DNA of 64,000 nucleotides, taken from Saprospiraceae bacterium (GTDB lineage: Bacteria > Bacteroidota > Bacteroidia > Chitinophagales > Saprospiraceae). Of the stretch, positions 3,406 through 56,359 are shown piece by piece. The position numbers were made by a program, and so were the translations under genes. How positions within the stretch are numbered: position 1 is the stretch's first letter; each line of letters starts with the position of its first letter. Below the pieces are notes generated by a model. The model did not search any database. It had not been told where the DNA came from and worked only from the letters and a program-made list of their open reading frames with translations. The stretch is from NCBI GenBank assembly GCA_015490715.1, contig WFXH01000029.1, forward strand, positions 1 through 64,000. The letters are read 5' to 3'.

Positions 3406-5325
3406 TTACCACCGATGTGTCCAGGCGAGTTGCCAGCTGAATTGCCTCCGCTCCACGCCGAGATAGGTAGACACCGACCAGCGCACAAGGCACTCTACCT
3501 GGTGCTCGCGCGGTAATTTTAGCACAAGTCGATGGAGAATGTGTCCGCCGTTGCCGTAAAACGCTGCAAATCGACCGATACCTAAACTGCCCGGCACATA
3601 GAGGTACATTCGCTGTCCAAAATCCGCAATCTCGAAGAGAGCTACTTGCCCCCTCCAGCGCCAGCGCCCTTTTCGACTCGTGTACTGCCAATTTTGGGCT
3701 ACCATCCATGCCGTGATCTGAGGCACCCCCCTCTGGGCAGTATTCAATCCATAGTGCATCGACCATCGATACTCCCACTGGCCAACCCATTGATGTCGTC
3801 CCTCGATGCGTAAAATGTGCATTGGTCGATATTGGATCACTTCATATCGCCCATTCAACACTTCGCGTCGCAACTGTCTCTGGCGGATGTCGAGAGACCA
3901 CTGATGATGGCGGCTCATCTTATAGACGAAAGACAATCGCCATATCGGGACATATCCCACCGACGTTCCCTTAAAACGCGCCAAATCCACAAATGCATGG
4001 AGCCTTGATCGCCTTGCCAGCTGCCACTCCACACCCAGATACCATCCGCGTTCACCTGCTGGATAGCTTCCTCTCATGATCGGTGCAACCCACAACATGG
4101 GATAACGAGCACTCATATACCGATACTGCACGGACAGGTGTACATCCCTACCAATTGCCAACGCCAGCCCCTGAACGAAGCCGCGCGCAGCTGTTGACCA
4201 CCATGCCCCCTCACCGTACCACAACACACCGTGCATGTGCCAACGATGTGCAATACTCCCCCCTGCCAACCAAGAGAGCGGCAAAGACGTGCGGCTGAAG
4301 CGATGCAACACCACGCTGGCCTCCATCGACCCGCGTTCTCCCGAATAACTGGTGTGGACTATCCCAGTGGCCACATCTAGTCGTCGATCAAACATTTTAT
4401 ACGGCTCATAACGAGGCTCCCCCACTACCCAATACGATTGCTTTGCCCGACTCCAAAACCAGCGCATGTTTCTCAACGATGCTGCAAAGTGGAGCTTCCA
4501 CCGTGGATGAAGGGACCATTCGAAGCCTATGCCGCGCATAAAGCCGTAGTTGGACCGACTTCGATACGGACGAATCACTCGTGACCTTCCCTTGACGATG
4601 GAGAGCACATGCATGCTCTGTCCAAGGTGAAAGCCCTGATAGCACAACAACCCTTCGCCCAGTCGTATGGTAAAATCACCAGCGTAAAAGCGCAACATCG
4701 TCCCTTTTGGCTGCCATAGGCTAAAGACGCGGAGGTGCAAGGGCAGCCATCGGCGCCATTCTTCCCACGGCTGTGGTCGATGGGGCCAATAGATTCCCAG
4801 ATGCCCGAAGATTCGACTGCTCAAAGCACCATCCCATTGCAAGCGACTTCCTTCGACCGAAAACCTCCCATCCAGTACTTCACCTGTATGTAAAGTGCGC
4901 ACCACTACCCCGTTCTTCCTCGCCCCCAAAGGACCTCCACCTACCACCTGCACAACATAGCGCAAGAGGCGACACTGCTCTGGCCCCAATCCGCGCACGG
5001 CATTCAGCTCCCACACCGATTCAAACGGCCCAAAGCGACGCCGATATTCCAAAATTGCCTCAATGGCCTCCCAATCTAAAAAGGGTATCTGCTCAAAATC
5101 CGATCGCTCCGCACGGTTTAAGTCGATCGGCTGATCGACCAATTGCCGCAACACGTGCCGGACATCTTCTTCGTAAACCAGTGCCCTCTCCACTCCATCC
5201 TCTTCCATCGCGCGCACATACGCCTCCCAAAACTCTTCAAACGCCCCCTGGGCATTCACCCAGCTCACCAGCAGTACACCAGCCACGAGTACTCCAGCCC
5301 TATATAATACCGCCCCAACAGCCAT
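3406..5325 (-). CDS. Helix-hairpin-helix plus outer-membrane beta-barrel protein
   Basis: The product of about 639 residues starts at the ATG at 5325 (a TTG 24 bases upstream is also possible), with a signal peptide ending VNAQG. After it comes a region with two helix-hairpin-helix units like ComEA: IDLNRAERSDFEQIPFLD, then a second unit around FESVWELNAVRGLGPEQC. The remaining 500 residues are rich in alternating aromatic/polar strands (many W, Y, R) and end in a strand-like WQLAWTHRW, as expected of an outer-membrane barrel. Proteins with this layout are widespread in Bacteroidota and have no established function. A role in handling DNA at the cell surface is only a guess from the HhH unit. 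Confidence 0.75.
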   Translation of the reverse strand: MAVGAVLYRAGVLVAGVLLVSWVNAQGAFEEFWEAYVRAMEEDGVERALVYEEDVRHVLRQLVDQPIDLNRAERSDFEQIPFLDWEAIEAILEYRRRFGPFESVWELNAVRGLGPEQCRLLRYVVQVVGGGPLGARKNGVVVRTLHTGEVLDGRFSVEGSRLQWDGALSSRIFGHLGIYWPHRPQPWEEWRRWLPLHLRVFSLWQPKGTMLRFYAGDFTIRLGEGLLCYQGFHLGQSMHVLSIVKGRSRVIRPYRSRSNYGFMRGIGFEWSLHPRWKLHFAASLRNMRWFWSRAKQSYWVVGEPRYEPYKMFDRRLDVATGIVHTSYSGERGSMEASVVLHRFSRTSLPLSWLAGGSIAHRWHMHGVLWYGEGAWWSTAARGFVQGLALAIGRDVHLSVQYRYMSARYPMLWVAPIMRGSYPAGERGWYLGVEWQLARRSRLHAFVDLARFKGTSVGYVPIWRLSFVYKMSRHHQWSLDIRQRQLRREVLNGRYEVIQYRPMHILRIEGRHQWVGQWEYRWSMHYGLNTAQRGVPQITAWMVAQNWQYTSRKGRWRWRGQVALFEIADFGQRMYLYVPGSLGIGRFAAFYGNGGHILHRLVLKLPREHQVECLVRWSVSTYLGVERRQFSWQLAWTHRW

Positions 5326-5546
5326 CAACAAGCGTGTTTTCGGTGTCAAGTGCGAAGCGTGCCCTCTAAACTCTCACAAAAGCCTCTCAGCGATTCAACT
5401 CTAAGATACGAGTTTTCTCAAAATTCGTGTATGAAATCGTGCATGCTCGGCATCGCTGTCCTCCGTGCCAAAGAGTGCACTATTTTATAACGACAACAAT
5501 AGAAAGCACTAACTTAGCCCGCGGACATTTCTCATGTGCTTGCTCC

Positions 5547-7203: not shown

Positions 7204-9315
7204 ATGAAAAGACTGCTCAGTTGGGTTTTGCTCTTTTGGTGGAGCATCCTGCATATTGGATCCCTTTACGGCCAACAGCCCCTCCGCGTTCCCAATCGCT
7301 TTGATTTCGGCAAGATGTGGACGTTTGAGCATCCACCCGTGAAATACTTCGAACAGACTTACGGCTATCGACTCGATACGGCCTGGTTTAACCGAGCCCG
7401 ATTGGGGGCATTGCGCTTTGCACGCTGGTGTTCGGCTTCGTTTGTCTCTCCCGATGGTCTCATCATGACCAATCACCACTGCTCACGCAGCTTGATGGGA
7501 GACCTCATGCGTGAAGGAGAAAACTTCGACAGTACAGGATTTTATGCCCGTACGCGAGCGGAAGAACGCAAAAAAGAAGGCCTCTACGTCGAACAACTCG
7601 TCAAGATCGAAGACATTACCGACCGCGTACTTCATGCCGTCAAAGACATCGACGATCCCACCGAACGCCAAAACCGCATCCGCCAGACTCTCCAACTAAT
7701 CAAAGAGGAATACGCCCAGCGCAACGACTGGAAAGACCTTCGCCTACAGACTGTGACCTACTACAGCGGTGGTAAGTTTTCCCTATACGGCTATAAGCGC
7801 TACGACGACATCCGGTTGGTAATGATTCCAGAGCTATCGGTGGCGTACTTCGGTGGCGACGACGACAATTTTACCTATCCGCGTTACAACCTCGACGTGA
7901 CCTTCTGGCGCGCCTACGACAAAGAGGGCAAACCCCTCAACACATCCGACTTCTACTTCCCCTTCAATCCCAACGGCATTACCGAAGGCACCCCTGTATT
8001 CGTCATAGGCAATCCCGCCAGAACGGAACGCTACCGTAGCTATGCCCAACTGCTCTTCGATCGCGACTACCGCTATCCCATGCAATTGACCTTCCTGCGC
8101 AACCGTCACAAACTCCTCGCCGAACAACACGCCAAACATCCCTCCCACGCCCTTCAAGAAATGCTCTTCTCCATCGCCAACAGCATCAAAGCCATCAACG
8201 GCATACTCAATGGCCTGAAAAACGACACCTTGCTCCAGCGCAAATACCACATGGAACAGTACATACGCTCCCATACCCCCAAAGACCAACAGTACATCTG
8301 GGAGGAATTGGCCAAATACTACCGAGAACTCGCCCCCTACGCCATGGCCGCCAATATTATGGGCCCCAACCAACTGCGCGGCAAAGCCGTCAACATCGCC
8401 TTCAACCTCTATCGGTACTACAAAGAACTCGAAAAGGACACCCCCGACCAGGCCACACTCGTCGCATTAAAAGAAGAAATCCTCCAGCTCAGCGATAGCC
8501 TCTATACCGAAAGCGAATGGAAATACCTCAAGACCTATCTCGATGAAATCCAGCGCTTCGACCATCCGCAGCATCCCATCGCCCCCGACATCTTGAAGGG
8601 GAAGAACACCAACTTCGTCGCACATCAAATCCTCAAAAATACCAATTTGAAAGATCCCGAGGGGGCAACGGAATTTCTCAACATGCCCTTAAAAAAGTGG
8701 AAATCGAGCAAAGACCCGCTATGGAAACTGGCTCAAGTTATCGCCCCTGCCCACGAAGAAGCACTCGACAAGTTTAGCTCCACCAGTCCCAGGCGCAAAC
8801 AACTCGAACAACAAATCGCCTTGGCCGTATTTGAAGTGCTCGGCGATGATCTCCCACCCGATGCGACTTTTACCCTGCGCATTGCCGATGGCGTGGTCAA
8901 GGGCTACCATTATAACGGTACACGCGCCCCCTACAAGACGACCTACTACGGCATGTACGACCGCCATTACTCCTTCGACGGCCAGTTTCCATGGGACTTG
9001 CCTGCACGATGGCACAATCCCCCGTACGAACTCCTCCAATCACCCCTCAACTTCGTCTCCACCAACGACATCATCGGAGGTAATTCAGGCAGCCCCATCA
9101 TCAACGTACATCACCAGGTCATTGGACTCGTCTTCGACGGCAATATCGAATCCCTGCCGGGCAATTTCATCTTCGACGAAACCTACAATCGCACCGTCGC
9201 CGTGCACGCTGGCGGCATCATCGCCGCATTGAAATACATCTATCGTGCCGACGCCCTCGTCAACGAACTCCTGCAAGACTACTATAAGTCGTACCAGAAA
9301 AATCACCAAAAATGA
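7204..9315 (+). CDS. S46 family dipeptidyl-peptidase (DPP7/DPP11 type)
   Basis: The 703 residues begin with a signal peptide ending LYGQQ. Near residue 90 is TNHHC, holding the catalytic histidine; near 626-631 is GNSGSP, with the likely nucleophile Ser628. Both are S46 signatures, and the length fits (about 700-720). S46 enzymes act in the periplasm, removing dipeptides from the N-terminus of oligopeptides in asaccharolytic Bacteroidota. The segment AVHAGGIIAAL falls where DPP11 carries the arginine that selects acidic residues; here there is a glycine, so DPP7-like hydrophobic specificity is more likely (inference). Its stop codon overlaps the start of the next gene, implying translational coupling with a small lipoprotein. 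Confidence 0.93.
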   Translation: MKRLLSWVLLFWWSILHIGSLYGQQPLRVPNRFDFGKMWTFEHPPVKYFEQTYGYRLDTAWFNRARLGALRFARWCSASFVSPDGLIMTNHHCSRSLMGDLMREGENFDSTGFYARTRAEERKKEGLYVEQLVKIEDITDRVLHAVKDIDDPTERQNRIRQTLQLIKEEYAQRNDWKDLRLQTVTYYSGGKFSLYGYKRYDDIRLVMIPELSVAYFGGDDDNFTYPRYNLDVTFWRAYDKEGKPLNTSDFYFPFNPNGITEGTPVFVIGNPARTERYRSYAQLLFDRDYRYPMQLTFLRNRHKLLAEQHAKHPSHALQEMLFSIANSIKAINGILNGLKNDTLLQRKYHMEQYIRSHTPKDQQYIWEELAKYYRELAPYAMAANIMGPNQLRGKAVNIAFNLYRYYKELEKDTPDQATLVALKEEILQLSDSLYTESEWKYLKTYLDEIQRFDHPQHPIAPDILKGKNTNFVAHQILKNTNLKDPEGATEFLNMPLKKWKSSKDPLWKLAQVIAPAHEEALDKFSSTSPRRKQLEQQIALAVFEVLGDDLPPDATFTLRIADGVVKGYHYNGTRAPYKTTYYGMYDRHYSFDGQFPWDLPARWHNPPYELLQSPLNFVSTNDIIGGNSGSPIINVHHQVIGLVFDGNIESLPGNFIFDETYNRTVAVHAGGIIAALKYIYRADALVNELLQDYYKSYQKNHQK

Positions 9316-9746
9316 TGCGCAACGCAGCTCTCTTCACCAGGCTTTTGTTGCCCGCACTCACTGCTCTTCTCCTGCTCAGCTCCTGCGAAGAGCGCTACTC
9401 CTGGACCGAATTGCACGACATCCCCGGCTGCACCGGTCCGTGCTACAAGCGCATGCCCTGCGAAGGCAAAGAAGTCAAAGTCGAAGTACCCATACTCGAC
9501 CGAAACCTCCTCCGCGGCGAAAACGATTACAAATTTTACTTCCGCGACCCCGAAACTAATCGCTCCATTGTGGTAGAGTTTACCGAAAACATCCCCATGG
9601 AAGCACTCGACGAAATACAACAATCAAAGGGAAAAACCCTCTACATCAAAGGTGTCCTCACAGGTATCGATATCATCGGTAGGGATTACTGTCAGCGCAT
9701 CCCCAAAGTGGTCGTCCAAAAGAAAGGCGATTTCTACTTGCGCTAA
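9312..9746 (+). CDS. Small lipoprotein coupled to the S46 peptidase (unknown function)
   Basis: A 144-residue product whose ATG overlaps the last codons of the S46 peptidase gene by 4 bases. It opens with a signal peptide and lipobox LLLLSSC and has a further cluster of cysteines (GCTGPCYKRMPC) shortly after. The rest is a beta-rich stretch of short alternating strands (VKVEVPILD, YKFYFRD, SIVVEFTE, TLYIKGVLTGI) that could be a small OB-like fold. I do not recognise the family. The overlap with the peptidase suggests the two are made together, possibly as a partner or membrane anchor. Confidence 0.75.
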   Translation: MMRNAALFTRLLLPALTALLLLSSCEERYSWTELHDIPGCTGPCYKRMPCEGKEVKVEVPILDRNLLRGENDYKFYFRDPETNRSIVVEFTENIPMEALDEIQQSKGKTLYIKGVLTGIDIIGRDYCQRIPKVVVQKKGDFYLR

Positions 9747-9751
9747 ACCCT

Positions 9752-10531
9752 CTACGAAGAGAGACGCTTGGCCAGCGAAGTATAAAATCGCTCCACCAGC
9801 GCAATATATTCGACGGGCAATCGATTAAGAGCCTCATCGATCATGTACACCGGTATATCGTCGTAATAGGCCTCCGCAATGGCCCCAGCCATGCATGCAA
9901 TAGTATCGCTATCCCATCCAATATGGATCCCCTTGTATACCGCATCTTCAAAGTCCGCCGAATCCAAAAAAGCCAGAATGGCCAAGGGCACCGTACCCTG
10001 ACATGTCTCATCCCATTTTCGATCGATTTGTCGTTTATCGATGTGCCGATCGAGATCATAGCCAAAGTGCGATGCAAGGGTGGATCTCATCACTTCCTTG
10101 TCTTTGACGGTGCGCGCTAAAAAGATCGCTCCTGCAATGGCCTGTGCCCCTTTGATACCTTCGGGATGATTGTGCGTCACCTCTGCAGATCGCTCGGCCT
10201 CGGCAAGTACCTCCTCCCATGTGTCAAAATACCATCCCACAGGCGAAACCCGCATGCCCGCGCCATTACCGTAACTCCCATAGGGGGCTGGTCGATTCGA
10301 TTGCAGCCACATTCGAAAACGTCCTCCGTACCCCTTGTGTGGATTTTGCCGGCCCCAGCGATGATAGGCCTCCCCGTAATCCCCACCGTCCAGTAGTACC
10401 TCCATCGTGGCAAGAGTCAAGATCGTATCGTCCGTAGGAAAATGATCCGGTCCAAAAAATCCCTCAAAGCGTACGGTCCTCCTTCCTTCGTAGATACTAC
10501 CCGCAATATCGCCAATAATCGCGCCAATCAT
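9752..10531 (-). CDS. ADP-ribosylglycohydrolase family protein
   Basis: About 259 residues from the ATG at 10531 (a TTG three codons upstream is in frame). It starts MIGAIIGDIAGSIYE, the classical opening of ADP-ribosylglycohydrolases, followed by PTDDTILT, carrying the Thr-Asp-Asp magnesium ligands, and near the C-terminus GWDSDTIACMAGAIAEAYY, which supplies the second metal site. These enzymes remove ADP-ribose from proteins, nucleic acids or small molecules. No ADP-ribosyltransferase gene is adjacent, so this is probably a stand-alone hydrolase rather than part of a DraG/DraT or toxin/antitoxin pair. It is convergent with the lipoprotein gene, 5 bases away. Confidence 0.92.
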   Translation of the reverse strand: MIGAIIGDIAGSIYEGRRTVRFEGFFGPDHFPTDDTILTLATMEVLLDGGDYGEAYHRWGRQNPHKGYGGRFRMWLQSNRPAPYGSYGNGAGMRVSPVGWYFDTWEEVLAEAERSAEVTHNHPEGIKGAQAIAGAIFLARTVKDKEVMRSTLASHFGYDLDRHIDKRQIDRKWDETCQGTVPLAILAFLDSADFEDAVYKGIHIGWDSDTIACMAGAIAEAYYDDIPVYMIDEALNRLPVEYIALVERFYTSLAKRLSS

Positions 10532-10756
10532 GTACTTCAATTTTTGCTCCTACCTATACAACATCTATAGCCCACATTTTTATGCCCATAATCCCCGATT
10601 TTTTTGTGCAGACCACTTCCCCACAACGCGACGCACATGCCGGTAGTGTCTTATCGAAATCATCCTCCAGACCAAATACCTATCTATTACCCACACTCTG
10701 CGCCCCACTGCTGCAGAATTGCTCGAGGGTGTACACGCCTGCAGGCCTTCGACTAA

Positions 10757-13273
10757 TCACGGATGATACACTCGAAACGACTTCGTCGTCTGGCCCACAG
10801 TTAGCGTAAAGTACAGCCATCCTGAAGGAAGTGGTACCCCTCTTAAATCGATGTCGATCACAGCCGTTCCCTCTTGACAGCTACCTGTCCAAACACCATA
10901 CCTCCTACCCAGCGCATCGTAACAGCTGACCAAATACGACGTAGCCCGGGGAATATCGACGCATTGGATGTGCAAATGCCCTCGGTCTTCAGTCGTCACT
11001 ACGGCACAATCCATTTGTGCCTTACCACCGCGAAGAGCAATAGAGCCCTTTTCTCCATGTATGAAATCGTAGTACGTACCCTCCATTAGGATTTTACCCT
11101 GTCGCAGCAATCGATCCAACTCGTGCTGCTGCACTTCAGGCACCTCGATACCAACGACCAGCGGTGAAGTCGATGACATCTTCGGGTATTGCACCAACCA
11201 CCGACCGTCTGCAAGACGCTGCACTTCCACTCCAGGTTGTATCGCATAAAGCGATAGTTCGATAGGAGCTACCCGAGCAAGGACCATGCCCATCGGCCTG
11301 CTCGGATCCAACTGGATGGTGTATCGATGCCCATCACTACGCGTATTGGGATCTGCTGCAACATACAACTCTCGCTTCGGACCGACCGACTCCCTAAAAA
11401 AGGGCAGCAAACTCGGAAGAATATCGCCCTTGACGATGAGATGATAACGGATTCCAACGGTAGTATCGATGAGCTCTCCAAGCGATAATACTCCCATTTG
11501 CGCATTGTCCCATGGTGGGGAAATCCCCTTGAGATTGTCCGACGGAACTACACATACATTACGTATACTTCGCGAAGTACTGCGACCAAAGATGATCAGC
11601 TCCTTCACCAAACGCTGATAATCCAGCTCATCAACCCTACCATCGTTGTTGACATCGGCTGCGATGAACTGCTCTGGAGCAAGTGTCACTTGTCCCCAAA
11701 GGTATTGCCGCAAGTACAGGGCGTCGACGACATCCGCGCGCATGGCCATGGGTTTGGTATAGATACCAAACGTGTTCCATCGCCTTCCACCGGGCAAACT
11801 ATCTACCGAAAAAAGCCCCTTCTGATCCACTGCCAACCAGAGCGTATCCCAGCGAAAGGCCGTATCGCTGCGCACGACCACCGTCGTATCCCACCAGCGA
11901 CGCACATAGACAGTACCACTCCGCCCGACAAAGGTATCGCGATGTTCGACGATGACCGTATCCGTACTCGTCTGTACAAGGTGGTGCCTCGAATCCAGAT
12001 CGACCATCGCCACGCGCACCCGAGATAGATCCGCCTTGCTGTATGGTACGATCCTGCCGACAACGCCCACCCTGCGCAGCGAATCCGGCCGACAGTTGGC
12101 AATGCGCGCTTGATTGTTTTGAATGATCACCTTCGTGCGACAAAAACTCTGATTGCCATGCACATCGGTCACCCATATCTCAACATCGTTTTCCCCCACG
12201 TGATCACAAGTAAATGTGCGTACCATATCGGTCGTATCCGACGAAAACGAAAATCGCAAGGGCCCATTGCCACACGACGGACTGCTCTTCTTGTCTAAAT
12301 CCTTGGCCCACACATCGACCATCCCCACGTCGTTGATACCGTCGCGGTTGGTATCAATGCCCATCAACACCGCAATGATTCCCTTCTTACAAAAGACGAG
12401 TGGAGGAATGGAGTTTTTGACCACCACGCGTACCTTGAGCTTGAGCTCCTTGCCACATCCGTACTCTACGATGTAGTAAAACACCGTCTCGCCAATGGGG
12501 TAAAAACCCGACGCATCCGGGCCCGTAGTGTCTGCATACGGAGAAGTATGGCGTACTTCTAAAACATGACCACAGGTATCCACAGCTACGACCGTGTCCA
12601 TGTCGATATACGCTCCATCGCAGTTTTGTGCATCGACAACCCACTCGCGCTGCCACCCCTCAATGTGCGGCGTGTCCTTTTGTGCGAGCTTGATAATCTG
12701 ATACTTTGTCCAGATACCCCCACTCTGCGGATCACTGGGATCCCAGGTGCACCAATCGACCACCTTCCACTTGCGCACAATCTTGGTGCATCCTGGCCCA
12801 AAGGTCAAGCGAAATTCCCTGTACGAATACCCCGGCTTACTGCAGGGCTTGCGCCGAAAACGCGGCCGCGCATACTTATCCGGAAGATCCTTCGGTGCCA
12901 GCGATATCCGACAACCCATCGTATCAAAAGACTCGGGCCATATGATGTCGTCTTCGGTAAAGGTCTCCACCTGTTGCACCTCAATGACCTGTACACACTG
13001 ATGCCATTGACCGTGCGCATCCATAGCCTTCCAGATACGCCGAATCTCCCCTACCCCACATATGTTGAGATCCCGTTCGACACGATCCGGAGGACCCGCA
13101 TCGCGCCACCGATAATGCTCGTAAATCTTCGCATTGCCAAACCTCGACAAGTCCCACAAATCCTCCGTACAATCGACCACCGTATCCGACGGACAGACAA
13201 GGCGAAATCCTCCCCCTGCCCAAGCACTACCCACCAAAACTCCAAAGACAAACAAGAACACCGTAATCTTCAT
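10757..13273 (-). CDS. Large secreted T9SS cargo protein with EF-hand/dockerin-like segment
   Basis: The 838-residue product has a signal peptide (ending SAWAG) followed by cysteine-containing, beta-rich repeats about 90-130 residues long with recurring patterns like CTKIVRKWKVVDWCTWDP and VVKNSIPPLVFC, typical of HYR/Ig-like extracellular repeats in Saprospiria. Around residue 550 is FIAADVNNDGRVDELDYQRL, a calcium-binding DxNxDGxxD loop as in dockerins. The end (YDALGRRYGVW..., LPSGWLYFTLTVGQTTKSFRVYHP) matches a type A T9SS C-terminal domain, so it is expected to be exported by the Por/Gld machinery encoded at 28-34 kb. The function of the repeats is unknown. Confidence 0.75.
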   Translation of the reverse strand: MKITVFLFVFGVLVGSAWAGGGFRLVCPSDTVVDCTEDLWDLSRFGNAKIYEHYRWRDAGPPDRVERDLNICGVGEIRRIWKAMDAHGQWHQCVQVIEVQQVETFTEDDIIWPESFDTMGCRISLAPKDLPDKYARPRFRRKPCSKPGYSYREFRLTFGPGCTKIVRKWKVVDWCTWDPSDPQSGGIWTKYQIIKLAQKDTPHIEGWQREWVVDAQNCDGAYIDMDTVVAVDTCGHVLEVRHTSPYADTTGPDASGFYPIGETVFYYIVEYGCGKELKLKVRVVVKNSIPPLVFCKKGIIAVLMGIDTNRDGINDVGMVDVWAKDLDKKSSPSCGNGPLRFSFSSDTTDMVRTFTCDHVGENDVEIWVTDVHGNQSFCRTKVIIQNNQARIANCRPDSLRRVGVVGRIVPYSKADLSRVRVAMVDLDSRHHLVQTSTDTVIVEHRDTFVGRSGTVYVRRWWDTTVVVRSDTAFRWDTLWLAVDQKGLFSVDSLPGGRRWNTFGIYTKPMAMRADVVDALYLRQYLWGQVTLAPEQFIAADVNNDGRVDELDYQRLVKELIIFGRSTSRSIRNVCVVPSDNLKGISPPWDNAQMGVLSLGELIDTTVGIRYHLIVKGDILPSLLPFFRESVGPKRELYVAADPNTRSDGHRYTIQLDPSRPMGMVLARVAPIELSLYAIQPGVEVQRLADGRWLVQYPKMSSTSPLVVGIEVPEVQQHELDRLLRQGKILMEGTYYDFIHGEKGSIALRGGKAQMDCAVVTTEDRGHLHIQCVDIPRATSYLVSCYDALGRRYGVWTGSCQEGTAVIDIDLRGVPLPSGWLYFTLTVGQTTKSFRVYHP

Positions 13274-29300: not shown

Positions 29301-29353
29301 CGTTTGTGTTTTATCGCAAAACGGCTTACTGGGTGTTGAAAAATGTACGGCGA

Positions 29354-30592
29354 ATGAACAACAAAAGGTGTCCGGCCGGGTGGGCTGTATTGATTGCAGC
29401 GATGGTCATATCGAGCTGTGGCACGCAGCAAACGGGCGAATTGATTGGCGTGCCCAACAGGCCAAAGTGGAAGGGAATACAGCCGTATGGTATGGTCTAC
29501 GTTCCCTCCGGTGTCACGCAAATTGGCCAGTCGGATGAAGACATTTTCCACCTGAGGATCAACCGCCCAAAGACCATCTCCATTCAGGGATTCTTCATGG
29601 ACGACACGGAAATCACCAATAACGAATATCGCCAGTTTGTCTATTGGGTACGTGACTCGATCGCACATACCATCTTGGGCGACTTCATCGAAGACGAAGA
29701 CGGTAACACGTACATCGACTGGGATGTAGAAATCGATTGGGAAGACGAGCTCTTGGATGAAATGTACTATCAGGGCGATATGGCACTGCCCGGCAAGCGC
29801 GAGCTCAATGTCGAGCTCTTCGAATACGAGTACACCTGGATCGACTGGCAAAAAGCCGCACGCGATAAAAACGCGCGACGTACCGAACTGGTCAAACGCG
29901 AAAAAGTCAACATCTATCCCGATACCCTGGTATGGATACGCGACTTTGTATACAGCTACAACGAACCACTGACGCGAAATTACTTCTCCCATCCCGCTTA
30001 TGACGATTATCCCGTCGTAGGTGTCAATTGGAAGCAGGCCAAAGCCTTTTGCCACTGGCGCACCCAACTGTGGAACAAGTACAAAGACGATCCCTTCAAT
30101 ACCGAAGACTTTCGACTACCCACCGAATTTGAATGGGAATACGCTGCGCGCGGAGGTCATTTGAGTGCTCCATATCCTTGGGGAGGCTACTATCTGCGCA
30201 ACAAAAAGGGATGCCTGCTGGCCAACTTCAAGCCCGGCCGCGGCAATTATCCCGAAGATGGCGGCCTACAGACTGTCAAAGCCGATGCGTATTTCCCCAA
30301 CGACTACGGACTGTACAACATGGCCGGCAACGTAGCAGAATGGACAGAAAGCGCTTACTTCGACAATGCCTTCAACTACATCCACGACCTCAATCCCAAT
30401 ATCAAATACGACGCAGCGAACGACGATCCCGAAGTCTACAAGCGCAAAGTCATCCGCGGAGGATCGTGGAAGGATATCGGCTACTACCTCCAAACTGGTA
30501 CGCGCCACTGGGAGTATCAAGACTCCGCAAAATCCTATATCGGCTTCCGCTGTGTCTTAACCTTTATGGGACGATCCATCCATGACTTTTAA
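29354..30592 (+). CDS. gldK: GldK/PorK lipoprotein of the type IX secretion system
   Basis: About 412 residues from ATG 29354 (MNNKRCPAGWAVLIAAM...VISSCG, lipobox). The rest has the sulfatase-modifying-factor-like fold that GldK shares with FGE: DDTEITNNEYRQFVYWV, FRLPTEFEWEYAARGG, NDYGLYNMAGNVAEWTES, VIRGGSWKDIGYY and GFRCVL. GldK forms, with GldN, the periplasmic ring bound to the outer membrane in T9SS. An earlier in-frame ATG belongs to the promoter region. The gene starts the gldKLMN cluster. Confidence 0.95.
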   Translation: MNNKRCPAGWAVLIAAMVISSCGTQQTGELIGVPNRPKWKGIQPYGMVYVPSGVTQIGQSDEDIFHLRINRPKTISIQGFFMDDTEITNNEYRQFVYWVRDSIAHTILGDFIEDEDGNTYIDWDVEIDWEDELLDEMYYQGDMALPGKRELNVELFEYEYTWIDWQKAARDKNARRTELVKREKVNIYPDTLVWIRDFVYSYNEPLTRNYFSHPAYDDYPVVGVNWKQAKAFCHWRTQLWNKYKDDPFNTEDFRLPTEFEWEYAARGGHLSAPYPWGGYYLRNKKGCLLANFKPGRGNYPEDGGLQTVKADAYFPNDYGLYNMAGNVAEWTESAYFDNAFNYIHDLNPNIKYDAANDDPEVYKRKVIRGGSWKDIGYYLQTGTRHWEYQDSAKSYIGFRCVLTFMGRSIHDF

Positions 30593-31346: not shown

Positions 31347-32912
31347 ATGTCCATCCCGAAGGAACCGCGCCAGATCATGATCAACATCATGTACTTGGTG
31401 TTGACCGCCCTACTGGCTCTCAACGTATCGGCCGAAATCTTCAACGCCTTTAAGATGATCGATCGCGGCCTCAACAGTGCAGCCAAATCTCTCGACGACA
31501 AAAACGCCAAAATGGCCGAGACGATCATCAAAAATGCCGAAGCCAACAAGCGGTACGAAAAGTACAAAGAGCGCGTCCCCCTTGCTCAGCAATATTCCCG
31601 AGAATTGACGCAGTACATCGACTCCATCATCACCTATCTGATCGACCAAACCGGCAACAAAAACGGCGTGATCGACGAAGGGGACAAGCGCTACGACGGA
31701 GAGTGGAAGGGTATTCGCGATAAGGATATCACCACACGATACCTCGTCGATCAAGGCAAAGGCGAAGAGCTCAAAAGGAAAATCCTCGAATACCGAGAAA
31801 AGTTTCTCGCCCTGGCCGACAGCGGCGATATCCATAAGTTGGAACCAGAGATCCCGCTCGTCATCGACGATACTTCGTGGAAAAAATCGCGTACGCGACG
31901 CCGCAACTGGGCAGACTTCGTCTTCAACCACATGCCCGTAGGGGCGACTATACCGATCCTCACGAAGTTTAAAACCGACGCCAAAAACGCCGAATCGGCA
32001 GTGCTCAGCTATCTCTTCGACAAAGTGGGTGGTGGTAAGCTTGAGCTGGAAAATTTCTTTCCCCTCTCGTCACCTAAAAAGTCGTATGTTGTGGTCGGCG
32101 AGCCGTACGAAACGGAAATCAGCTTAGGAGCTTCCGCCGGTGAATCGTCCAAAGCCAAGATTGAAATCTTTGTCAACGGCCAAAAGCTCCCAACTCAAGA
32201 CGGCGTAGCAAAGTGGCGCGTGGTACCCAAATCCGTAGGCGTCAAAAAGTACAAGGTCACCATCCGATTGACCAACCCGGTGACCAAAGAGGTCAAGGAA
32301 TTTTCGAAGACCTTCGAATACGAGGTTGGACAGCGTTCGGTGAGTATCTCCCTGGATAAAATGAACGTCTTTTACATCGGCGTCGACAATCCCATTACGG
32401 TATCCGCATCGGGCGTGTCGACCAATGCGCTCCAAGTCAAGGGCGAAGGCATCACCATCACGCGCGATCCCAATGGCGGAGCAGGTGACTACATCGTGCG
32501 CGCGAACAAACCCGGCAAAGCCAAAATCATCCTCACCGCCAACGGTCAGCACCTCGGCACGTTCGAGTACCGCGTCAAGCGTATACCCGATCCCACACCC
32601 ATGTTGGGCAAGTACAAGGGAGGCGTCATCGGCAATGGTACCTTTAAAGCCTTTAATGCCCTGCGCGCCGCGCTTCCAGGCTTTGATTTCGACGCCAAAT
32701 GTAGAATAGTAGGCTTCCGCATGGTGCGCCTACCCAAGCGAAAAGATCCACAAATCGCAGACAACAAGGGAGGAAAATACGGAAGCGAAGCCCTCCGTCT
32801 GCGCAACCTCGCCAAGCCGGGAGACAAGTTTTTCTTCGAAAACATCAAGGCCAAGTGCCCCGGCGACAAAGCGGCACGTACCTTGTCACAGATGGTCTTT
32901 AACATTCGCTAA
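31347..32912 (+). CDS. gldM: GldM/PorM motor/periplasmic shaft of T9SS
   Basis: 521 residues, the usual GldM size. A single N-terminal transmembrane helix (IMINIMYLVLTALLALNVSAEIFNAF) with the start SIPKEPRQ... is followed by a helical and several beta-rich periplasmic domains (D1-D4), e.g. GDYIVRANKPGKAKIILTANG. GldM pairs with GldL in the motor and reaches across the periplasm to the GldK/GldN ring. Confidence 0.95.
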   Translation: MSIPKEPRQIMINIMYLVLTALLALNVSAEIFNAFKMIDRGLNSAAKSLDDKNAKMAETIIKNAEANKRYEKYKERVPLAQQYSRELTQYIDSIITYLIDQTGNKNGVIDEGDKRYDGEWKGIRDKDITTRYLVDQGKGEELKRKILEYREKFLALADSGDIHKLEPEIPLVIDDTSWKKSRTRRRNWADFVFNHMPVGATIPILTKFKTDAKNAESAVLSYLFDKVGGGKLELENFFPLSSPKKSYVVVGEPYETEISLGASAGESSKAKIEIFVNGQKLPTQDGVAKWRVVPKSVGVKKYKVTIRLTNPVTKEVKEFSKTFEYEVGQRSVSISLDKMNVFYIGVDNPITVSASGVSTNALQVKGEGITITRDPNGGAGDYIVRANKPGKAKIILTANGQHLGTFEYRVKRIPDPTPMLGKYKGGVIGNGTFKAFNALRAALPGFDFDAKCRIVGFRMVRLPKRKDPQIADNKGGKYGSEALRLRNLAKPGDKFFFENIKAKCPGDKAARTLSQMVFNIR

Positions 32913-32930
32913 TTACCAAAAGATAGGGTC

Positions 32931-33845
32931 ATGAAATTGTCGGCATGGAAATATCTCGGGATATTTGCTCTCTTCGCCCTCATCACATCAGTTGCTGCCT
33001 ACGGCCAAATACTCGAGAGCGACGAAGGGCTCAAAGAAGCGGATGAAGAACCCCGCGTCGAATTCGACACTTCCAAATACGTCGACGGCATCGTCGAGCG
33101 TACCATTATCCAAAACACGCGGGTATTGCCGTACGAGCCCGTTCGTGAAGCGGACATCCCCTGGGAAAAACGGGTCTGGCGCATCCTCGACGTGCGCGAA
33201 AAGATGAATCTGCCCTTTGTCTACCCCAATCGCCCGTTTTTCCAGATCCTCGCCGAATTGGCTCTCGATGGTAAGATCTTAGTCTTCAAAGACGACAATT
33301 TCCGCTCCCCCCTATCCCGTGAAGGCATCGAAAAGCTCCTCTATCGCGTCGATACTGTCACAGATATTGACGAAGAGACCTACGAGGAAAGAATCACCAT
33401 CGTCCACAACGAAATCAACTACGAAGACATCAAGAAGTACCGCATTAAAGAGGTGTGGTTTTTCGACGAAGAGGCCTCGCGCGTGATGGTGCGCATCCTC
33501 GGCATAGCCCCCATCCTGGACGTATACGATCCCGAGACGGGAGATTTCAAGTACTCCCTTCCGATGTTTTGGGTCTACTTTCCCGAGGCCAGAAAATACC
33601 TCGCACATGAGCCTATCTTCGTCGATTACAACGATGTCTCGCCCATGACTTGGCAAGACCTCTTTGAGGGGCGGTATTTTTCGAGCTACATATATAAAAT
33701 CACCAACCCACTGGACTTGCGCATCGAAGACTATATCCGCACTCCCGTCGATGATCCATTGCAAGAGGGTATCGACCGCCTTCTGGAATCGGAGCAATTT
33801 AAAAACTACCTGCTCGACTTTGAGCAGGATTTATGGTCCTATTGA
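32931..33845 (+). CDS. gldN: GldN/PorN periplasmic ring protein of T9SS
   Basis: 304 residues beginning with a signal peptide (ending AAYGQ). The core YVDGIVERTIIQNTRVLPYEPVREADIPWEKRVWRILDVREKMN is a GldN hallmark, followed by RIKEVWFFDEEASRVMVRILGIAPI and FWVYFPEARKYL. GldN binds GldK to form the ring that faces the outer membrane. It closes the operon, followed by a strong terminator at 33874-33906. Confidence 0.95.
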   Translation: MKLSAWKYLGIFALFALITSVAAYGQILESDEGLKEADEEPRVEFDTSKYVDGIVERTIIQNTRVLPYEPVREADIPWEKRVWRILDVREKMNLPFVYPNRPFFQILAELALDGKILVFKDDNFRSPLSREGIEKLLYRVDTVTDIDEETYEERITIVHNEINYEDIKKYRIKEVWFFDEEASRVMVRILGIAPILDVYDPETGDFKYSLPMFWVYFPEARKYLAHEPIFVDYNDVSPMTWQDLFEGRYFSSYIYKITNPLDLRIEDYIRTPVDDPLQEGIDRLLESEQFKNYLLDFEQDLWSY

Positions 33846-36118: not shown

Positions 36119-37255
36119 ATGGGCGTTGTAGAGATTGTCTATGGTGTATGGGGGACACTTTTCATCAGTTATTGCGCACTGCTCGCCTACATTGCCAGAG
36201 CTGCGCGCCGCGTGCTCAATGGAAGTACACCCTCTAAATGTGTGCAGGATCTGCCATCGGTAAGTCTTCTCATCCCTTTTCACAACGAAGCGCATCACAT
36301 CGCCGCGACGATTGAGAGTCTGAAAAGGCTTCACCTGTCCGTAACGTGGGAAGTACTCTTTATCGACGATCACTCGACAGATAGCACGCCGGAGTTGCTT
36401 CACTGGATTGCTCAGGGGTTGCCTCATCGCGTCCTGCAGAGCCCAAGGAGAGGAAAAAAGCACGCGTTGCTCCACGGGGTGCGCCACGCGCAATACGACC
36501 TCATCGTTGCTACCGATGCCGATGTGCAATTGGAGCGTGATTGGATTGTTAAAATCCTTACGTCTCATGTCAAAGAGGAGTGGGTCTTTGGCACCGGTCC
36601 GGTATTTACAAGGAGGACCGGCAGCTGGTTGTGTGACTTCCAGTACATGGAGTATTTGGGTCTGGCGCTGTTGACTGCTGCGGGGATAGCCACGGGCCGT
36701 TGGGCTCTTGCCAATGGCGCCAACATGGCATGGAAGCGCTCGGTGATCGAGGCGTTAAAGCCCTGGGAAGACAATATGGATCTTCCCACGGGCGATGACG
36801 TGTTTTTGGCACGGGCCGTACAGCGCTATATGCCTGATGGTACAGGCTATTGGCCGCAGGCTCCTGTGTATACTCGTGCGGTGGGGTCACTCAGGAGCTT
36901 GGTCGCTCAGCGACGCCGCTGGGCATCAAAGCTGCCGCTCGTCTCCACGCGGACTTTCACTGCTGTGCTTTTCATCATCGGGGGCATCCACTGGTGCTGT
37001 GTGTGGCTTCCTGTATTGTTTTTCTATGGAGGAGTAGGGTACTCAGGGGCCATCACGGGCCTAATACTGGGTAAGATATTGGCCGATTATGGCTACTTGC
37101 GCTATAGTGCTCGATTTTTTCATCAGAGGTGGCCGGGCACAGTAGTTTTTCTTCGCGCGTGGCTGGTCAATGTGTTCTTTTACGGTGTGATAAGCCCAAT
37201 ACTCTATATCTGGAGTTATGTGCACACTTATCGGACGAGAGTGACATCCCCCTGA
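36119..37255 (+). CDS. GT2 family membrane glycosyltransferase
   Basis: 378 residues: an N-terminal hydrophobic segment, a GT-A domain with VSLLIPFHNEAHHI, VLFIDDHSTDSTP, the DxD metal site in VATDADVQLERDW, and the Q(R)RRW acceptor-site motif (AQRRRWASKL), then C-terminal helices. The signature is that of processive or cell-envelope GT2 enzymes. The last 28 bases overlap, on the opposite strand, with the end of the type B T9SS cargo gene. Confidence 0.88.
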   Translation: MGVVEIVYGVWGTLFISYCALLAYIARAARRVLNGSTPSKCVQDLPSVSLLIPFHNEAHHIAATIESLKRLHLSVTWEVLFIDDHSTDSTPELLHWIAQGLPHRVLQSPRRGKKHALLHGVRHAQYDLIVATDADVQLERDWIVKILTSHVKEEWVFGTGPVFTRRTGSWLCDFQYMEYLGLALLTAAGIATGRWALANGANMAWKRSVIEALKPWEDNMDLPTGDDVFLARAVQRYMPDGTGYWPQAPVYTRAVGSLRSLVAQRRRWASKLPLVSTRTFTAVLFIIGGIHWCCVWLPVLFFYGGVGYSGAITGLILGKILADYGYLRYSARFFHQRWPGTVVFLRAWLVNVFFYGVISPILYIWSYVHTYRTRVTSP

Positions 37256-39105
37256 CGGGTAAAGCGTACGATACATCGCCGGTCGTTTCTGCCACGAGCC
37301 TTAATGGCGTAGACGTAGACACCTGCCGGCGCGGGTTTGCCACGGAAGGTGCCGTCCCACTTTTGATTGAGGTCTGCGGTTTCAAACACCTTTTCGCCCC
37401 AACGGTTGAAAATCACCAAATGGTACTCCTCGATGAAGGTATTGAGCGTATCGCCGAGTGTCATACCAAAATAGTCGTTCAATCCATCGCCATTAGGTGT
37501 AAAGGCTTTGGGTACAAATACATTAAGTTGAACATCGGGCACGAAAGTGTAAATCCACTTGTACTGCACGGGTTGTTGGCACCACACAAAGTTCAACTCT
37601 ATGATCGTATCGCGGAAGATGGTCAACACGCGACGGGGATTGTTGGGATCTTGCACTATGAGGGTATCTCCCTGGCAGGTGATGTTTTCGTTTTCCTGGT
37701 CTTCGGGGTAGAAGACGCACACATTTTGAGAGCTGATGCCTTCACCATCAATGGGGGTGATGCGTTGCGACGCGTGCATCGTGTCCCCCAGTGCATCGGG
37801 AAGGGTTAAACTGGTATCTACAGCTATGGGCAACGAACTATTTTCGTACGAACCAAAGTATTCAGAGGCCTGGCAGGGTTGGCCGGCAAAAAACTCGGCG
37901 CCTTCTGATTTGACTAAGTATTGGTAATAGGCCTTATACACTGTATCGTAATACAGCTGGGTATACAGGATAAAATTTTGGGCCGATGATGTCCCCAATC
38001 CCGGAGTGTAGGCATCTACCTGGGGCAGATGTGTCGAGAGCAACAGGGAGTCGGGCAAGTCATCCCAGACGTATTTCTTTGCTATTCGCCCATCTCTGGT
38101 CAGATGGATTCCCGTCATCAGAATTTGCGTGTCGTTGGGCAATTGCGTGTACCCGGTATAGCTCACGTCTATGCCCACATCTCCAATCAATGTTCCCATC
38201 TTAGGGCCTATCCAATTCCACCACTGACCGGAATACAACAGCTTGCCCGAAGTGTTGAGCACCAATACATGTCCCTTTTGTTCATAGTTGATGCTGTCCC
38301 AATAGGCGCCCCACCCTACGCCGACATAGTAGAGCTGGTCAAAGCCCAACGTGAGATTAGTCCACTGTCCCAATACCACGCTGTCCGGCAAGGTGGTGTC
38401 GACGTACACCTTTGCCCAGTCGACCATATCCCTTTGATCGAGCTTCATAAAAGCGAGTGTATCGTACCCACCTTTAAAGCCGTAGAGCACGACGCGGTGG
38501 CCTTCGACCTCATCGAGGCGCAAGGTTTTATACCCTTCGATGAGGTAACGCCTATATTGAACGACGTTGGGTAGCACCCCCACATCATAGCGCACCAACA
38601 AGTGGCGCATGCTGTCCTTTTGACGAACAAGGGCGTAGATGCGGTTGTCGGAAGTGACGAGTACATCTTCGATGGTATGGTGTACCGTATCTTCGAAGAG
38701 CTTTTCCTCAAAGGCGTCAATTTCTGCGGTTGCGATGTGATAACGGTACAACAATAGCCGACGTTCCGTTGAGTCAAGGTCTAAACCTATGGCTACCACC
38801 CAGATGCTCTGATCGATGGGCAAGGTGAAAGTGTAGTAGTCGTAGAGCGCCACATAATGGGTATCGCGATAGAGGTACTGCCACTGGAGCATACCACAGG
38901 AGTCGTAGTACTGTAGGCGAAAGCTCAAGGTGTCCTCATTAAGTCCTGTCAATACGGCAATGCCTTGATCGTATGCTTTGGTGAGCCGTGCTTCACGGGC
39001 ATTGTAAATTTCTTTCCATTCTTTTTTGTATAAAAACTGCGCTTGCAAACTCGGTAGGATGGACACTAAAAAGATGCAAGTGGTAGCATATCGATTGAAG
39101 CTCAT
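37228..39105 (-). CDS. T9SS type B cargo protein (gliding motility-associated C-terminal domain)
   Basis: About 625 residues from ATG 39105 (ATG 39117 also possible), with a signal peptide (ending SLQAQ). Most of the protein is a repetitive beta-rich region with short acidic/aromatic strands and numbers of W/Y, without a recognised family. The end, NVFVPKAFTPNGDGLNDYF, then VIFNRWGEKVFETAD, KWDGTFRGKPAPAGVYVYAI, is a textbook type B T9SS C-terminal domain. Such proteins are usually exported and attached at or near the surface with the help of PorP/SprF partners; one such gene is at 28.2 kb. Confidence 0.9.
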   Translation of the reverse strand: MSFNRYATTCIFLVSILPSLQAQFLYKKEWKEIYNAREARLTKAYDQGIAVLTGLNEDTLSFRLQYYDSCGMLQWQYLYRDTHYVALYDYYTFTLPIDQSIWVVAIGLDLDSTERRLLLYRYHIATAEIDAFEEKLFEDTVHHTIEDVLVTSDNRIYALVRQKDSMRHLLVRYDVGVLPNVVQYRRYLIEGYKTLRLDEVEGHRVVLYGFKGGYDTLAFMKLDQRDMVDWAKVYVDTTLPDSVVLGQWTNLTLGFDQLYYVGVGWGAYWDSINYEQKGHVLVLNTSGKLLYSGQWWNWIGPKMGTLIGDVGIDVSYTGYTQLPNDTQILMTGIHLTRDGRIAKKYVWDDLPDSLLLSTHLPQVDAYTPGLGTSSAQNFILYTQLYYDTVYKAYYQYLVKSEGAEFFAGQPCQASEYFGSYENSSLPIAVDTSLTLPDALGDTMHASQRITPIDGEGISSQNVCVFYPEDQENENITCQGDTLIVQDPNNPRRVLTIFRDTIIELNFVWCQQPVQYKWIYTFVPDVQLNVFVPKAFTPNGDGLNDYFGMTLGDTLNTFIEEYHLVIFNRWGEKVFETADLNQKWDGTFRGKPAPAGVYVYAIKARGRNDRRCIVRFTRQGDVTLVR

Positions 39106-39154
39106 AAGCGATAGCATTTCATCATTTCAAGGTAAACGTCTAAAGTACGAATAC

Positions 39155-53851: not shown

Positions 53852-56359
53852 TTACCATTTCACAAATTTAAGAACTCCCGAAGTATTGTCATTCGTATGA
53901 AATTGTACGACATACGCCCCTGCGGGAAGGGAGGACACCGAAACAGGCGCATTGGCCATACTGGTCCCTTTCATCACGAGGTCACCGTGCTGGTTGTAGA
54001 TCCCATATACGATCGGTTGTGATAGAGGAGATGTACCCTCAGGCAAACGGAAAAGGAATACATCCCGTACGGGGTTGGGGAAAAGTTGAATCTGTAGCAT
54101 TCTACGCCCCCTTTGATCGGCGACGGCAGTTGCTGTCGAAATCTGTCCTGTCCACACTCCTCGACCATGTGTAAAGGCGTACAAGCGACTGTCGGTGGGC
54201 CGTATTTTTACCGTAAAGACGGGTACTCTCGGGACAGTTGGATCCTTATGCCATACCTCCCCTTCGTCGTACGAGAGGAAAAGACCGTAATCCGTACCCA
54301 GGGCAATGAGCTCAGGGTACTGAGGAGCCACTGCTATGGAATTGATCGGCAGATACTTCGGCAGGTTGGACGAGATGTCTATCCACTCTGCATGATCCGA
54401 CCAGATGTTTTCCACCCGCCAGATGCGTGAGTCATTGTCGTAGTTGGACATCCCCACATACAACACGTCGGGGTTGGTGGGATGCTGGACGATCGTGCGT
54501 ATGAAATCGTTCTTGAGGTGCTCGGGCGCCTGTTCGTCAAGTGGGACATTCTCGATCACTGACGTACCGTCCCAGACCAGTCGCCGCAATTCCCCCTTCT
54601 TGCCTCCAATGAAAAATACGCGCCATTGCGGTACATCGGGATGTGGAAGGATGATCGCCGCATAGGGCTGTGTGAACTCCTCTGTCACGACTGTCCACTT
54701 CTGGCCGCGATTTTCAGTGTAGTAGACGCGATCCTTTTTCATGAGCAAAATGTGCCGAAAATCCTCGGGGTCGATGTAAAAGGGGGTGATAAAATAGTTT
54801 TTACCCTCCCCCTCAATGGTCTTTGCAATGCGCTGCGCTTGAGAAGTGTTCAGGTCTTTGACATAATAGAGCACGTTGCGCTGAATAGAGAGGTATAGCT
54901 CCCGATCGTTGTCTTTGTTGACATAGCAAAAGCCTCCATCTCCTCCCCATATTCTTCGAAAGACATCGTTATCCATCTTACCGAGTAAAGTGCCGTTGTC
55001 TTGTGTGCCACCGATGACTTGATCGGAGTACATGAAATAATCTCCCGTATAAAATTGTGTGATGTTGAGCCCATCACTAAAGGGGCCCAGATAGATGACG
55101 CTATCGTCTTCGATGATATATTCATAAATGCCCCCGTCATTCGTCAGATAAAACGCCTCAGGGTCGTGGGGATCGAAGAGGATGTAGTGTTGATCGACAT
55201 GCCCTATGCGCATTAGCTTCCAAGTGTTTCCTCCGTCGTTGGAATACGCAGCACCTATGCTTCCGACGACGACGAAGTCGGGATTGTCGGGATGGACCTG
55301 AATGCACATGGTGTACCAGGCGTACGCACTGGCCATGTGGGGTTTGGTGGTCTCCTTCCAGGTCTTGCCGCCATCGCGACTGGCAAAGACACCGTATATT
55401 CCCCTCTCTCCTGCCTTACGATCTTCGGCAATAGCGTACATCACCATGGGATTACTCTCACAGATCGACAGGTCAATGCGCCGAATCGGCAGGTCGGCCT
55501 CAGGTGCAAAGGGGAGAAATTCGGTAGCGTCCAAGTTGGACTCGTGCAGCCGATAGATGCCCTTGCCGCGGATGGCCACGTACACCAGTGAGTCGCGCGT
55601 CACCTCGATATCCGTACATTCGTCATAGAGAATCTTTTGAAAGGTCTCTCCCGCATCGTGCGAGACGTAAAGGCCGTTTTTAGAAGCTACGTACAGGGTA
55701 TGCGTATCGGTACGCGAGCACACGACGCGCCAGCAGAGGTAGAGATCATTGATCTGCGAGCCCGGCAGGAGCTCGAAGGTGCGTCCGCCATCGGTACTCT
55801 TTAAGATACCCTCACCTTCGATTCGGGCAGAGTTTCCCGTCACCTCTCCCGTGGCTGCGTACAACACCTCGGGCTGAAAGGGATTCTGGGCAAGGAAGCT
55901 CACCGCCGGCGTCTCGCCGTTATCGTCAATAGGTATCCATTGATGGACTACATAATCATAGCGCCATATGCCCCCCGAAATGCCGGCAGTGACGAAATTG
56001 TCGGGATCGGTCACATCGACGACCAATCCACGCACGCGACCATGAATATTCGACGGCCCCATTTCCTGTACGTCAACGAGTCGATACTCACTGCGCAATT
56101 CGATGTCGCGCATCCGCTCCTCCCACCTTCGAAAATACCTTCGTATGCCCATCGGCATATTGGGATCGCTGATGTATTTGAATGTCTTCAAGTCATCTTC
56201 CCAGCCGGGATGGTCACCCTGCGACTCGACGGCTTGCCAATCACTCTCGCCTCCCTCGGGGATATCTTCCCCGCATTGGGTCATCAAGAGCAAAGCCGTA
56301 ACCGACGAAAATACCAAGCCGAACAGGATAAAAACCAGATATCTATAGGACTTGCGCAT
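53852..56359 (-). CDS. T9SS cargo with BNR/sortilin-like beta-propeller
   Basis: 835 residues, starting with a hydrophobic segment (LVFILFGLVFSSVTALLLMTQC, possibly a lipobox). It contains many BNR/Asp-box-like repeats (STDGGRTFELL, SHDAGETFQKI, SRDGGKTWKE, SNDGGNTWKLM, YTENRGQKWTVV, SYDEGEVWHKD), as in sortilin/VPS10 and exosialidase-like propellers. The end (LQIQLFPNPVRDVFLFRLPE ... LPAGAYVVQFHTNDNTSGVLKFVKW) is a type A T9SS domain. It should be secreted through the Por/Gld system and may bind or cleave glycans or proteins. The lipobox-like cysteine is unusual for a cargo. Confidence 0.88.
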   Translation of the reverse strand: MRKSYRYLVFILFGLVFSSVTALLLMTQCGEDIPEGGESDWQAVESQGDHPGWEDDLKTFKYISDPNMPMGIRRYFRRWEERMRDIELRSEYRLVDVQEMGPSNIHGRVRGLVVDVTDPDNFVTAGISGGIWRYDYVVHQWIPIDDNGETPAVSFLAQNPFQPEVLYAATGEVTGNSARIEGEGILKSTDGGRTFELLPGSQINDLYLCWRVVCSRTDTHTLYVASKNGLYVSHDAGETFQKILYDECTDIEVTRDSLVYVAIRGKGIYRLHESNLDATEFLPFAPEADLPIRRIDLSICESNPMVMYAIAEDRKAGERGIYGVFASRDGGKTWKETTKPHMASAYAWYTMCIQVHPDNPDFVVVGSIGAAYSNDGGNTWKLMRIGHVDQHYILFDPHDPEAFYLTNDGGIYEYIIEDDSVIYLGPFSDGLNITQFYTGDYFMYSDQVIGGTQDNGTLLGKMDNDVFRRIWGGDGGFCYVNKDNDRELYLSIQRNVLYYVKDLNTSQAQRIAKTIEGEGKNYFITPFYIDPEDFRHILLMKKDRVYYTENRGQKWTVVTEEFTQPYAAIILPHPDVPQWRVFFIGGKKGELRRLVWDGTSVIENVPLDEQAPEHLKNDFIRTIVQHPTNPDVLYVGMSNYDNDSRIWRVENIWSDHAEWIDISSNLPKYLPINSIAVAPQYPELIALGTDYGLFLSYDEGEVWHKDPTVPRVPVFTVKIRPTDSRLYAFTHGRGVWTGQISTATAVADQRGRRMLQIQLFPNPVRDVFLFRLPEGTSPLSQPIVYGIYNQHGDLVMKGTSMANAPVSVSSLPAGAYVVQFHTNDNTSGVLKFVKW

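Follow-up and report, generated by a model that had tools for sequence, protein, structure and literature searches.

A ComEA-type helix-hairpin-helix module on a predicted large outer-membrane barrel, a candidate component of DNA uptake in Bacteroidota

Introduction

Bacteroidota and green sulfur bacteria mostly have, to our knowledge, no secretin/pilus machine, and competence pili are absent from most Bacteroidota. Natural transformation of Chlorobaculum tepidum is described as routine (PMC3842273). Transformation of Porphyromonas gingivalis requires ComEA (PGN_0421) and ComEC, and the route of DNA into the periplasm is called unclear there (PMC11532111). Riemerella anatipestifer is competent, and RA0C_RS02645, described as a protein with three helix-hairpin-helix (HhH) domains, is essential for its transformation; the HhH protein named by a screen of 3000 mutants in this species was not the barrel protein described below (PMC8459023).

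We analysed a stretch of 64,000 nucleotides (the window) from a Saprospiraceae bacterium, assembly GCA_015490715.1, contig WFXH01000029.1, and in it a gene for an HhH module joined to a predicted large barrel, here called the HhH-barrel protein. Among openly licensed papers we found none on the family and no experiment on any member. For the passage of DNA across the outer membrane in Bacteroidota the family is a concrete candidate: it occurs in most of the phylum, gene order links it to comEC in one family (f22), it has a likely partner gene, and it has relatives in laboratory organisms that can already be transformed.

Gene and protein

A first-pass annotation, made from the DNA alone, had placed the gene at 3406-5325. 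It is a genuine open reading frame of the minus strand, in which 5325 is an in-frame ATG and the longest frame begins at the TTG at 5349. The features of the locus are:

3406..5349, minus strand: HhH-barrel gene, encoding 647 aa (start TTG 5349) or 639 aa (start ATG 5325); the coordinates include the stop codon
5248..5349, minus strand: putative signal peptide region, residues 1-34 (sequence; hydrophobic N-termini in relatives)
5137..5247, minus strand: acidic N-terminal helical stretch, residues 35-71 (sequence and model; N-domain pI 4.5)
4948..5136, minus strand: ComEA-type double HhH module, residues 72-134 (PF12836, E 3.3e-8; model blocks with pLDDT 83-93)
5074..5088, minus strand: hairpin of the first HhH motif, IPFLD at residues 88-92, which has no hairpin glycine (sequence, column counts)
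4984..4998, minus strand: hairpin of the second HhH motif, VRGLG at residues 118-122, which retains its glycines, unlike most of the family (sequence, column counts)
3409..4932, minus strand: predicted large outer-membrane beta-barrel, residues 140-647 (models, fold comparison; basic, pI about 11; aromatic last residue)
5350..5426, no strand: gap of 77 bp from TTG 5349 to the longest frame of the divergent bshC

The ortholog in a congener (G001) is 84 % identical and retains the frame and both start codons. With dN 0.084 and dS 0.46 (NG86; dN/dS about 0.2), the gene is under purifying selection in this comparison within the genus. The gene order around it is identical in the congener, and the convergent M49 peptidase gene ends 4 bp from its stop codon. 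In the window the gene appears to stand alone.

As read from the sequence, the N-terminus is hydrophobic, ends in ...AQ, resembles the N-termini of relatives and is probably a signal peptide. The HHH_3 family (PF12836) matches residues 73-126 with 33.9 bits, above its cut-off of 27, as a single unit of two HhH motifs and not a longer array. No further Pfam family was found in the protein at E<=0.1; a TonB-dependent receptor was accordingly rejected, as no plug or receptor family appeared at that threshold. The model of the window protein is of moderate confidence (pLDDT 67.8, pTM 0.64), and that of a relative from Algoriphagus kandeliae (L121) is good (pLDDT 85.8, pTM 0.83), and shows the HhH module and, after residue 140, 24 strands that are each 9 or more residues long. 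Both models contain the HhH module and the large barrel, which the first-pass annotation had proposed to check by fold prediction. With the signal peptide, the long antiparallel strands and the aromatic C-terminus, the protein is predicted to be an outer-membrane beta-barrel, so that the layout suggested earlier (ComEA-like HhH unit, signal peptide, big C-terminal barrel) holds, for the HhH part by the PF12836 match and for the barrel by prediction.

In a fold search the window model retrieved barrels of several kinds, porins, FadL and ushers among them, which superposed poorly. For the relative's model the first six hits by Z, with values from 14.9 down to 13.8 and rmsd of 3.9-5.4 over 332-381 residues, were the ushers FimD and PapC, headed by 9fy9_D (Z 14.9, rmsd 4.0, 381 residues). 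VDACs (rmsd about 7, poor) and TonB receptors followed within about 1-2 Z units, and Foldseek placed the barrel of the Mtr complex and TonB receptors first, with TM scores mostly of 0.3-0.4. The hits lie so close together that the likeness to ushers is not taken as kinship; the comparisons suggest a very large barrel in terms of size and strand count.

Several other genes of the window deserve mention. The type IX secretion core genes gldM and gldN lie at 31347-33845 on the plus strand, preceded by a gene with an FGE-sulfatase domain (29306-30592) that may encode a GldK/GldJ-like lipoprotein. Two minus-strand genes, at 37228-39117 and 53852-56359, encode likely type IX cargo proteins with CHU_C and Por_Secre_tail domains, and a protein of 838 aa (10757-13273, minus strand), which has a type I dockerin domain (E 4.6e-8), is probably secreted. 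The nuclease-like lipoprotein noted earlier at 52.8 kb does exist (Exo_endo_phos_3, E 2.9e-107; lipobox-like N-terminus, ...LIAC); as a functional companion of the HhH-barrel protein it was rejected, for it lies 47 kb away and no linkage was found.

Helix-hairpin-helix module

The glycines of an hGhG hairpin make the contact of an HhH motif with the DNA backbone. When the family profile was compared with the sequences in the PDB, the matches fell in the HhH part and included ComEA (8dss, E 1.2e-6; 8dfk, E 6.6e-4), EEPD1, a mitochondrial elongation factor and others. In the NCBIfam comE model the HhH-barrel protein scores 26.3 bits, far from the cut-off of 152.35. Column counts were made over 139 aligned members, that is 140 minus the congener (L101). 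At the two glycine positions of the first hairpin G occurs in 10 and 3 members, and at those of the second in 61 and 10, the last position being Asp in 96. The glycines expected for DNA contact of the ComEA type are thus mostly lost, and the window protein retains only the second pair. The HhH module has a median net charge of -2 (range -9 to +3; window -4), and the whole N-domain of the family is acidic, with a median net charge of -9 and a pI of 4.3.

The genome of the window also contains a standalone protein with modules of this kind. On another contig (C34, L206) comEC occupies 9973-12093, and directly behind it, with no gap, lies a gene at 9016-9972 for a protein of 318 aa that has a hydrophobic anchor at its N-terminus and comprises three HhH units, of which the middle one has LPGIG. 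This triple-HhH protein also stays below the comE cut-off, with 83.5 bits, and is likely to be the ComEA of the organism. Its outer two units likewise have no glycine pair. In standalone HhH proteins the charge of a single module is -2 to +8, which overlaps the -9 to +3 of the barrel proteins.

That HhH repeats normally bind DNA, as the first-pass annotation had argued, can therefore not be safely transferred to this family: with the hairpin glycines mostly lost and the N-domain acidic, direct binding of DNA by the HhH module of the barrel appears doubtful. The loss of the glycines is not conclusive against a role with DNA, because the outer units of the triple-HhH protein lack the pair too and the charges overlap. 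The barrel itself is basic in most members (median pI 9.6; above 8.5 in 128/140). As a pointer to DNA this charge is a hint only, because neither of the two green sulfur barrels examined is basic (pI 6.1 and 5.1), and a high pI (9.98) is also found in an unrelated porin of the window.

A domain between a signal peptide and a barrel is, as a general rule, expected in the periplasm, and by this rule the HhH module should be on the periplasmic side. Docking, plugging or a weak hand-off is a more plausible role for it than a grip on DNA at the surface.

Occurrence among Bacteroidota

The window protein has matches at E<=1e-3 in 50 of 60 genomes, its own and those of relatives, some of them in the HhH part only, and in a BLAST comparison at E<1e-4 it finds 54 out of 60 further members. 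With the family profile, 135 of the 148 genomes of a draw across the phylum match at E<=1e-3; 18 of these matches are weak (E 3e-11 or worse), which leaves 117, among them a 203-aa fragment (G172). Four genomes with weak matches were opened as barrel candidates, and three of them hold barrel frames (G076, G123, G154) and the fourth probably does (G158); six-frame profile matches understate the family. At the stricter E<=1e-20, 165 of the 197 genomes of a class draw match, and a scan of named genomes gave at least 583 relatives, of which the best 80 are mostly Cytophagales by title. The earlier description of such proteins as common in Bacteroidota but without function fits these numbers and the openly licensed papers, among which none on the family was found.

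The phylum draw includes 30 genomes of green sulfur bacteria (f34), recognized by the chlorosome protein CsmA (PF02043), which was found in 30/30 of them and in 0/6 others; the HhH-barrel gene is present in all 30. No barrel was detected in the 14 genomes of f24 and the two of f23, where the best weak match had E 2e-9. We take f22 to be Sphingobacteriaceae and f23/f24 to be Weeksellaceae/Flavobacteriaceae. Since six-frame matches understate the family, a diverged barrel could lie behind the weak f23/f24 matches (G070, G141, G175, G187, G191); the one that was opened, in G191, is a 296-aa HhH protein.

Gene neighbourhood

Flanks were compared for 61 loci, namely that of the window and 60 fetched ones (40 from the phylum draw, for family spread, and 20 from relatives). 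A gene for a PorV/PorQ-like protein lies directly upstream of the HhH-barrel gene in 33 of them, with weak cases in L094 and L098. A DUF4835/T9SS_PorD gene is found two genes upstream in 13 (12 divergent, one on the same strand), ComEC directly downstream in three, all of f22, and other neighbour clusters in at most 6 each. Of 80 named loci, some cut by contig ends, 52 have the PorV-like gene immediately in front of the barrel gene and 2 have it at position -2. The two genes overlap in 60 of 85 immediate pairs and lie within 50 bp in 79, the overlap being inflated by longest-frame starts. Four of these PorV-like proteins were tested and match PorV_fam (NF033709) with E 4e-18 to 7e-12, the best at 66 bits against a cut-off of 90. 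The partner profile matches 92/148 genomes of the phylum draw at E<=1e-10, a threshold that also lets in PorV-like paralogues, and at this threshold gave no match in the genome of the window.

Ten loci were chosen for a long partner frame of about 380-405 aa, and in nine of them, from families f45, f32 and f29, the C-terminus of the partner is a ComEA-type HhH module. These nine genes are not adjacent to a barrel gene; in the tenth locus (G076) the partner has no HhH and the barrel gene follows directly behind it. The HhH-ended PorV-like barrels belong to deep lineages of the phylum (L223, L224, L225, L227-L232). The PorV/PorQ-like barrel is likely the partner of the HhH-barrel protein in many relatives, and the recurrence of the same module on it is, in our view, the most telling sign that both barrels and the HhH module belong together.

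The link to comEC was surveyed in 101 f22 genomes of 22 genera, with presence taken as E<=1e-20. The barrel occurs in 85 genomes (20 genera) and ComEC in 97. In 73 of the 85 carriers, from 18 genera, comEC follows the barrel gene directly and in the same orientation, with a median of 724 bp between the end of the barrel and the PF03772 domain inside comEC. Among the remaining 12 carriers, five have the barrel 1.0-1.3 kb from the PF03772 domain, three of these because the barrel match stops early, two at about 1.9-2.0 kb, two at 16 and 40 kb, and three on another contig. Seven of the 12 belong to one genus (g141), where the pair is separated in 7/9 carriers. At four inspected f22 loci the distance from barrel to comEC is -10 to +3 bp, and in three a PorV-like gene stands in front; ComEC was identified by PF03772 and DUF4131 in three of the frames and by the position of the PF03772 match in the fourth. 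At locus L222 the frames of the PorV-like protein, the barrel and ComEC are consecutive, with an 11-bp overlap and then a 3-bp gap.

Among the f22 genomes the barrel never occurs without ComEC; ComEC alone is present in 12 and neither of the two in 4, which gives a hypergeometric probability of 4.5e-4 that ignores linkage and kinship; all four genomes without ComEC also lack the barrel, and one deletion could take out both. Ten of the 12 are the sampled members of genus g76, all of which keep ComEC with no barrel match and so form a natural loss set. Beyond f22, no adjacency to comEC was seen by eye in the phylum draw or among the class-draw matches listed. Observed in one family alone, the adjacency possibly reflects a single ancestral event. 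Joint presence of barrel and ComEC was set aside as evidence in the wider draws, because ComEC is nearly universal there (148/148 and 195/197) and its co-occurrence with the barrel carries little information. In two genomes, G349 and G413, the barrel is present and ComEC gave no match at E<=1e-20; these cases may be assembly gaps or true exceptions. In the genome of the window no comEC was found near the HhH-barrel gene.

Discussion

The reading that we favour, with confidence somewhat short of even, is that the HhH-barrel protein is the outer-membrane part of a DNA-uptake route and that its HhH part serves as a periplasmic docking or hand-off module. The ComEA-type module would face the periplasm, carried on a large, probably 24-stranded outer-membrane barrel, and with this barrel and the PorV/PorQ-like partner as a pair, Bacteroidota and green sulfur bacteria would take DNA across their outer membrane. 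The DNA would move through the barrel or along it, and the periplasmic HhH module would dock with, or hand DNA towards, the membrane-anchored ComEA-like HhH protein and ComEC. For the genome of the window such an assignment would be by homology, because neither comEC nor a PorV-like partner is linked to the gene there.

The main competitor is a pore or exporter of the envelope that has nothing to do with DNA, in which the HhH module would dock proteins, the PorV-like barrel would be its partner and the order of barrel and comEC in f22 would have been inherited without functional meaning. We regard this as quite possible, though by no means the expected outcome. It would accommodate the lost hairpin glycines and the acidic N-domain, a comEC adjacency observed in f22 alone, a partner of the PorV/PorQ kind, and a retention (165/197) broader than expected of a dispensable trait such as competence. 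It does not sit well with the tight order of barrel and comEC in 73/85 f22 carriers of 18 genera, nor with a module that is of the ComEA type and recurs on the partner barrel. A role in type IX secretion was considered on account of the PorV-like and PorD neighbours, that is the sub-threshold PorV_fam matches and the 13/61 loci with DUF4835/T9SS_PorD. The distribution of SprA (PF14349) opposes it: SprA gave no match in any of the 30 barrel-bearing green sulfur genomes or in the barrel-bearing G061, and it is present in all 16 f23/f24 genomes (14 of f24, 2 of f23), where the barrel was not detected. As the barrel thus occurs without SprA, and SprA without a detected barrel, we consider such a role very improbable.

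The first-pass annotation had spoken of a surface DNA receptor or uptake pore. The pore has gained from the f22 comEC linkage and the HhH-bearing partner. A receptor with its HhH module exposed outside the cell would explain the presence of a ComEA-type module, and we hold it to be highly unlikely, because a domain in front of the barrel is expected to be periplasmic and because the N-domain is acidic and has lost most of its hairpin glycines.

That the barrel serves DNA uptake universally is challenged most strongly by R. anatipestifer, which we assume to belong near f23/f24. If this placement is right, R. anatipestifer would have its competence without the barrel and would rely on something else, perhaps the outer-membrane proteins RA0C_RS04915 and RA0C_RS04920. 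A wider picture, and one that we put forward as rather doubtful, is a portal without secretin, made of the 24-stranded HhH-barrel protein, with the PorV-like barrel in many lineages, from which a chain of HhH modules would lead across the periplasm to ComEC: on the barrel, on the partner in some lineages, and on the ComEA-like protein of the inner membrane. In lineages with basic barrels the acidic N-domain may gate the barrel until it is displaced by DNA. If DNA uptake by the HhH-barrel protein is true, a major phylum would have a non-secretin route of DNA entry; if not, a defined architecture and a likely partner will still have been assigned to a large barrel that is very widespread and uncharacterised.

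Compared with known systems, the HhH-barrel protein resembles the ushers FimD and PapC, whose barrels have 24 strands, in strand count, but no sequence relation was found and Pfam gave no usher domains. Its partner is a small FadL-like barrel, as are the members of the PorV/PorQ family, but it falls under the family cut-off, is linked to the HhH-barrel gene and in deep lineages has a C-terminal HhH module. The triple-HhH protein of the window genome has the same kind of modules, but it has no barrel, is anchored by a transmembrane segment and is encoded by a separate gene; Riemerella RA0C_RS02645 resembles this protein, and not the barrel, going by its description. ComEA has a single HHH_3 double-HhH module, as has the HhH-barrel protein, which adds to it a very large barrel and is mostly without the hairpin glycines.
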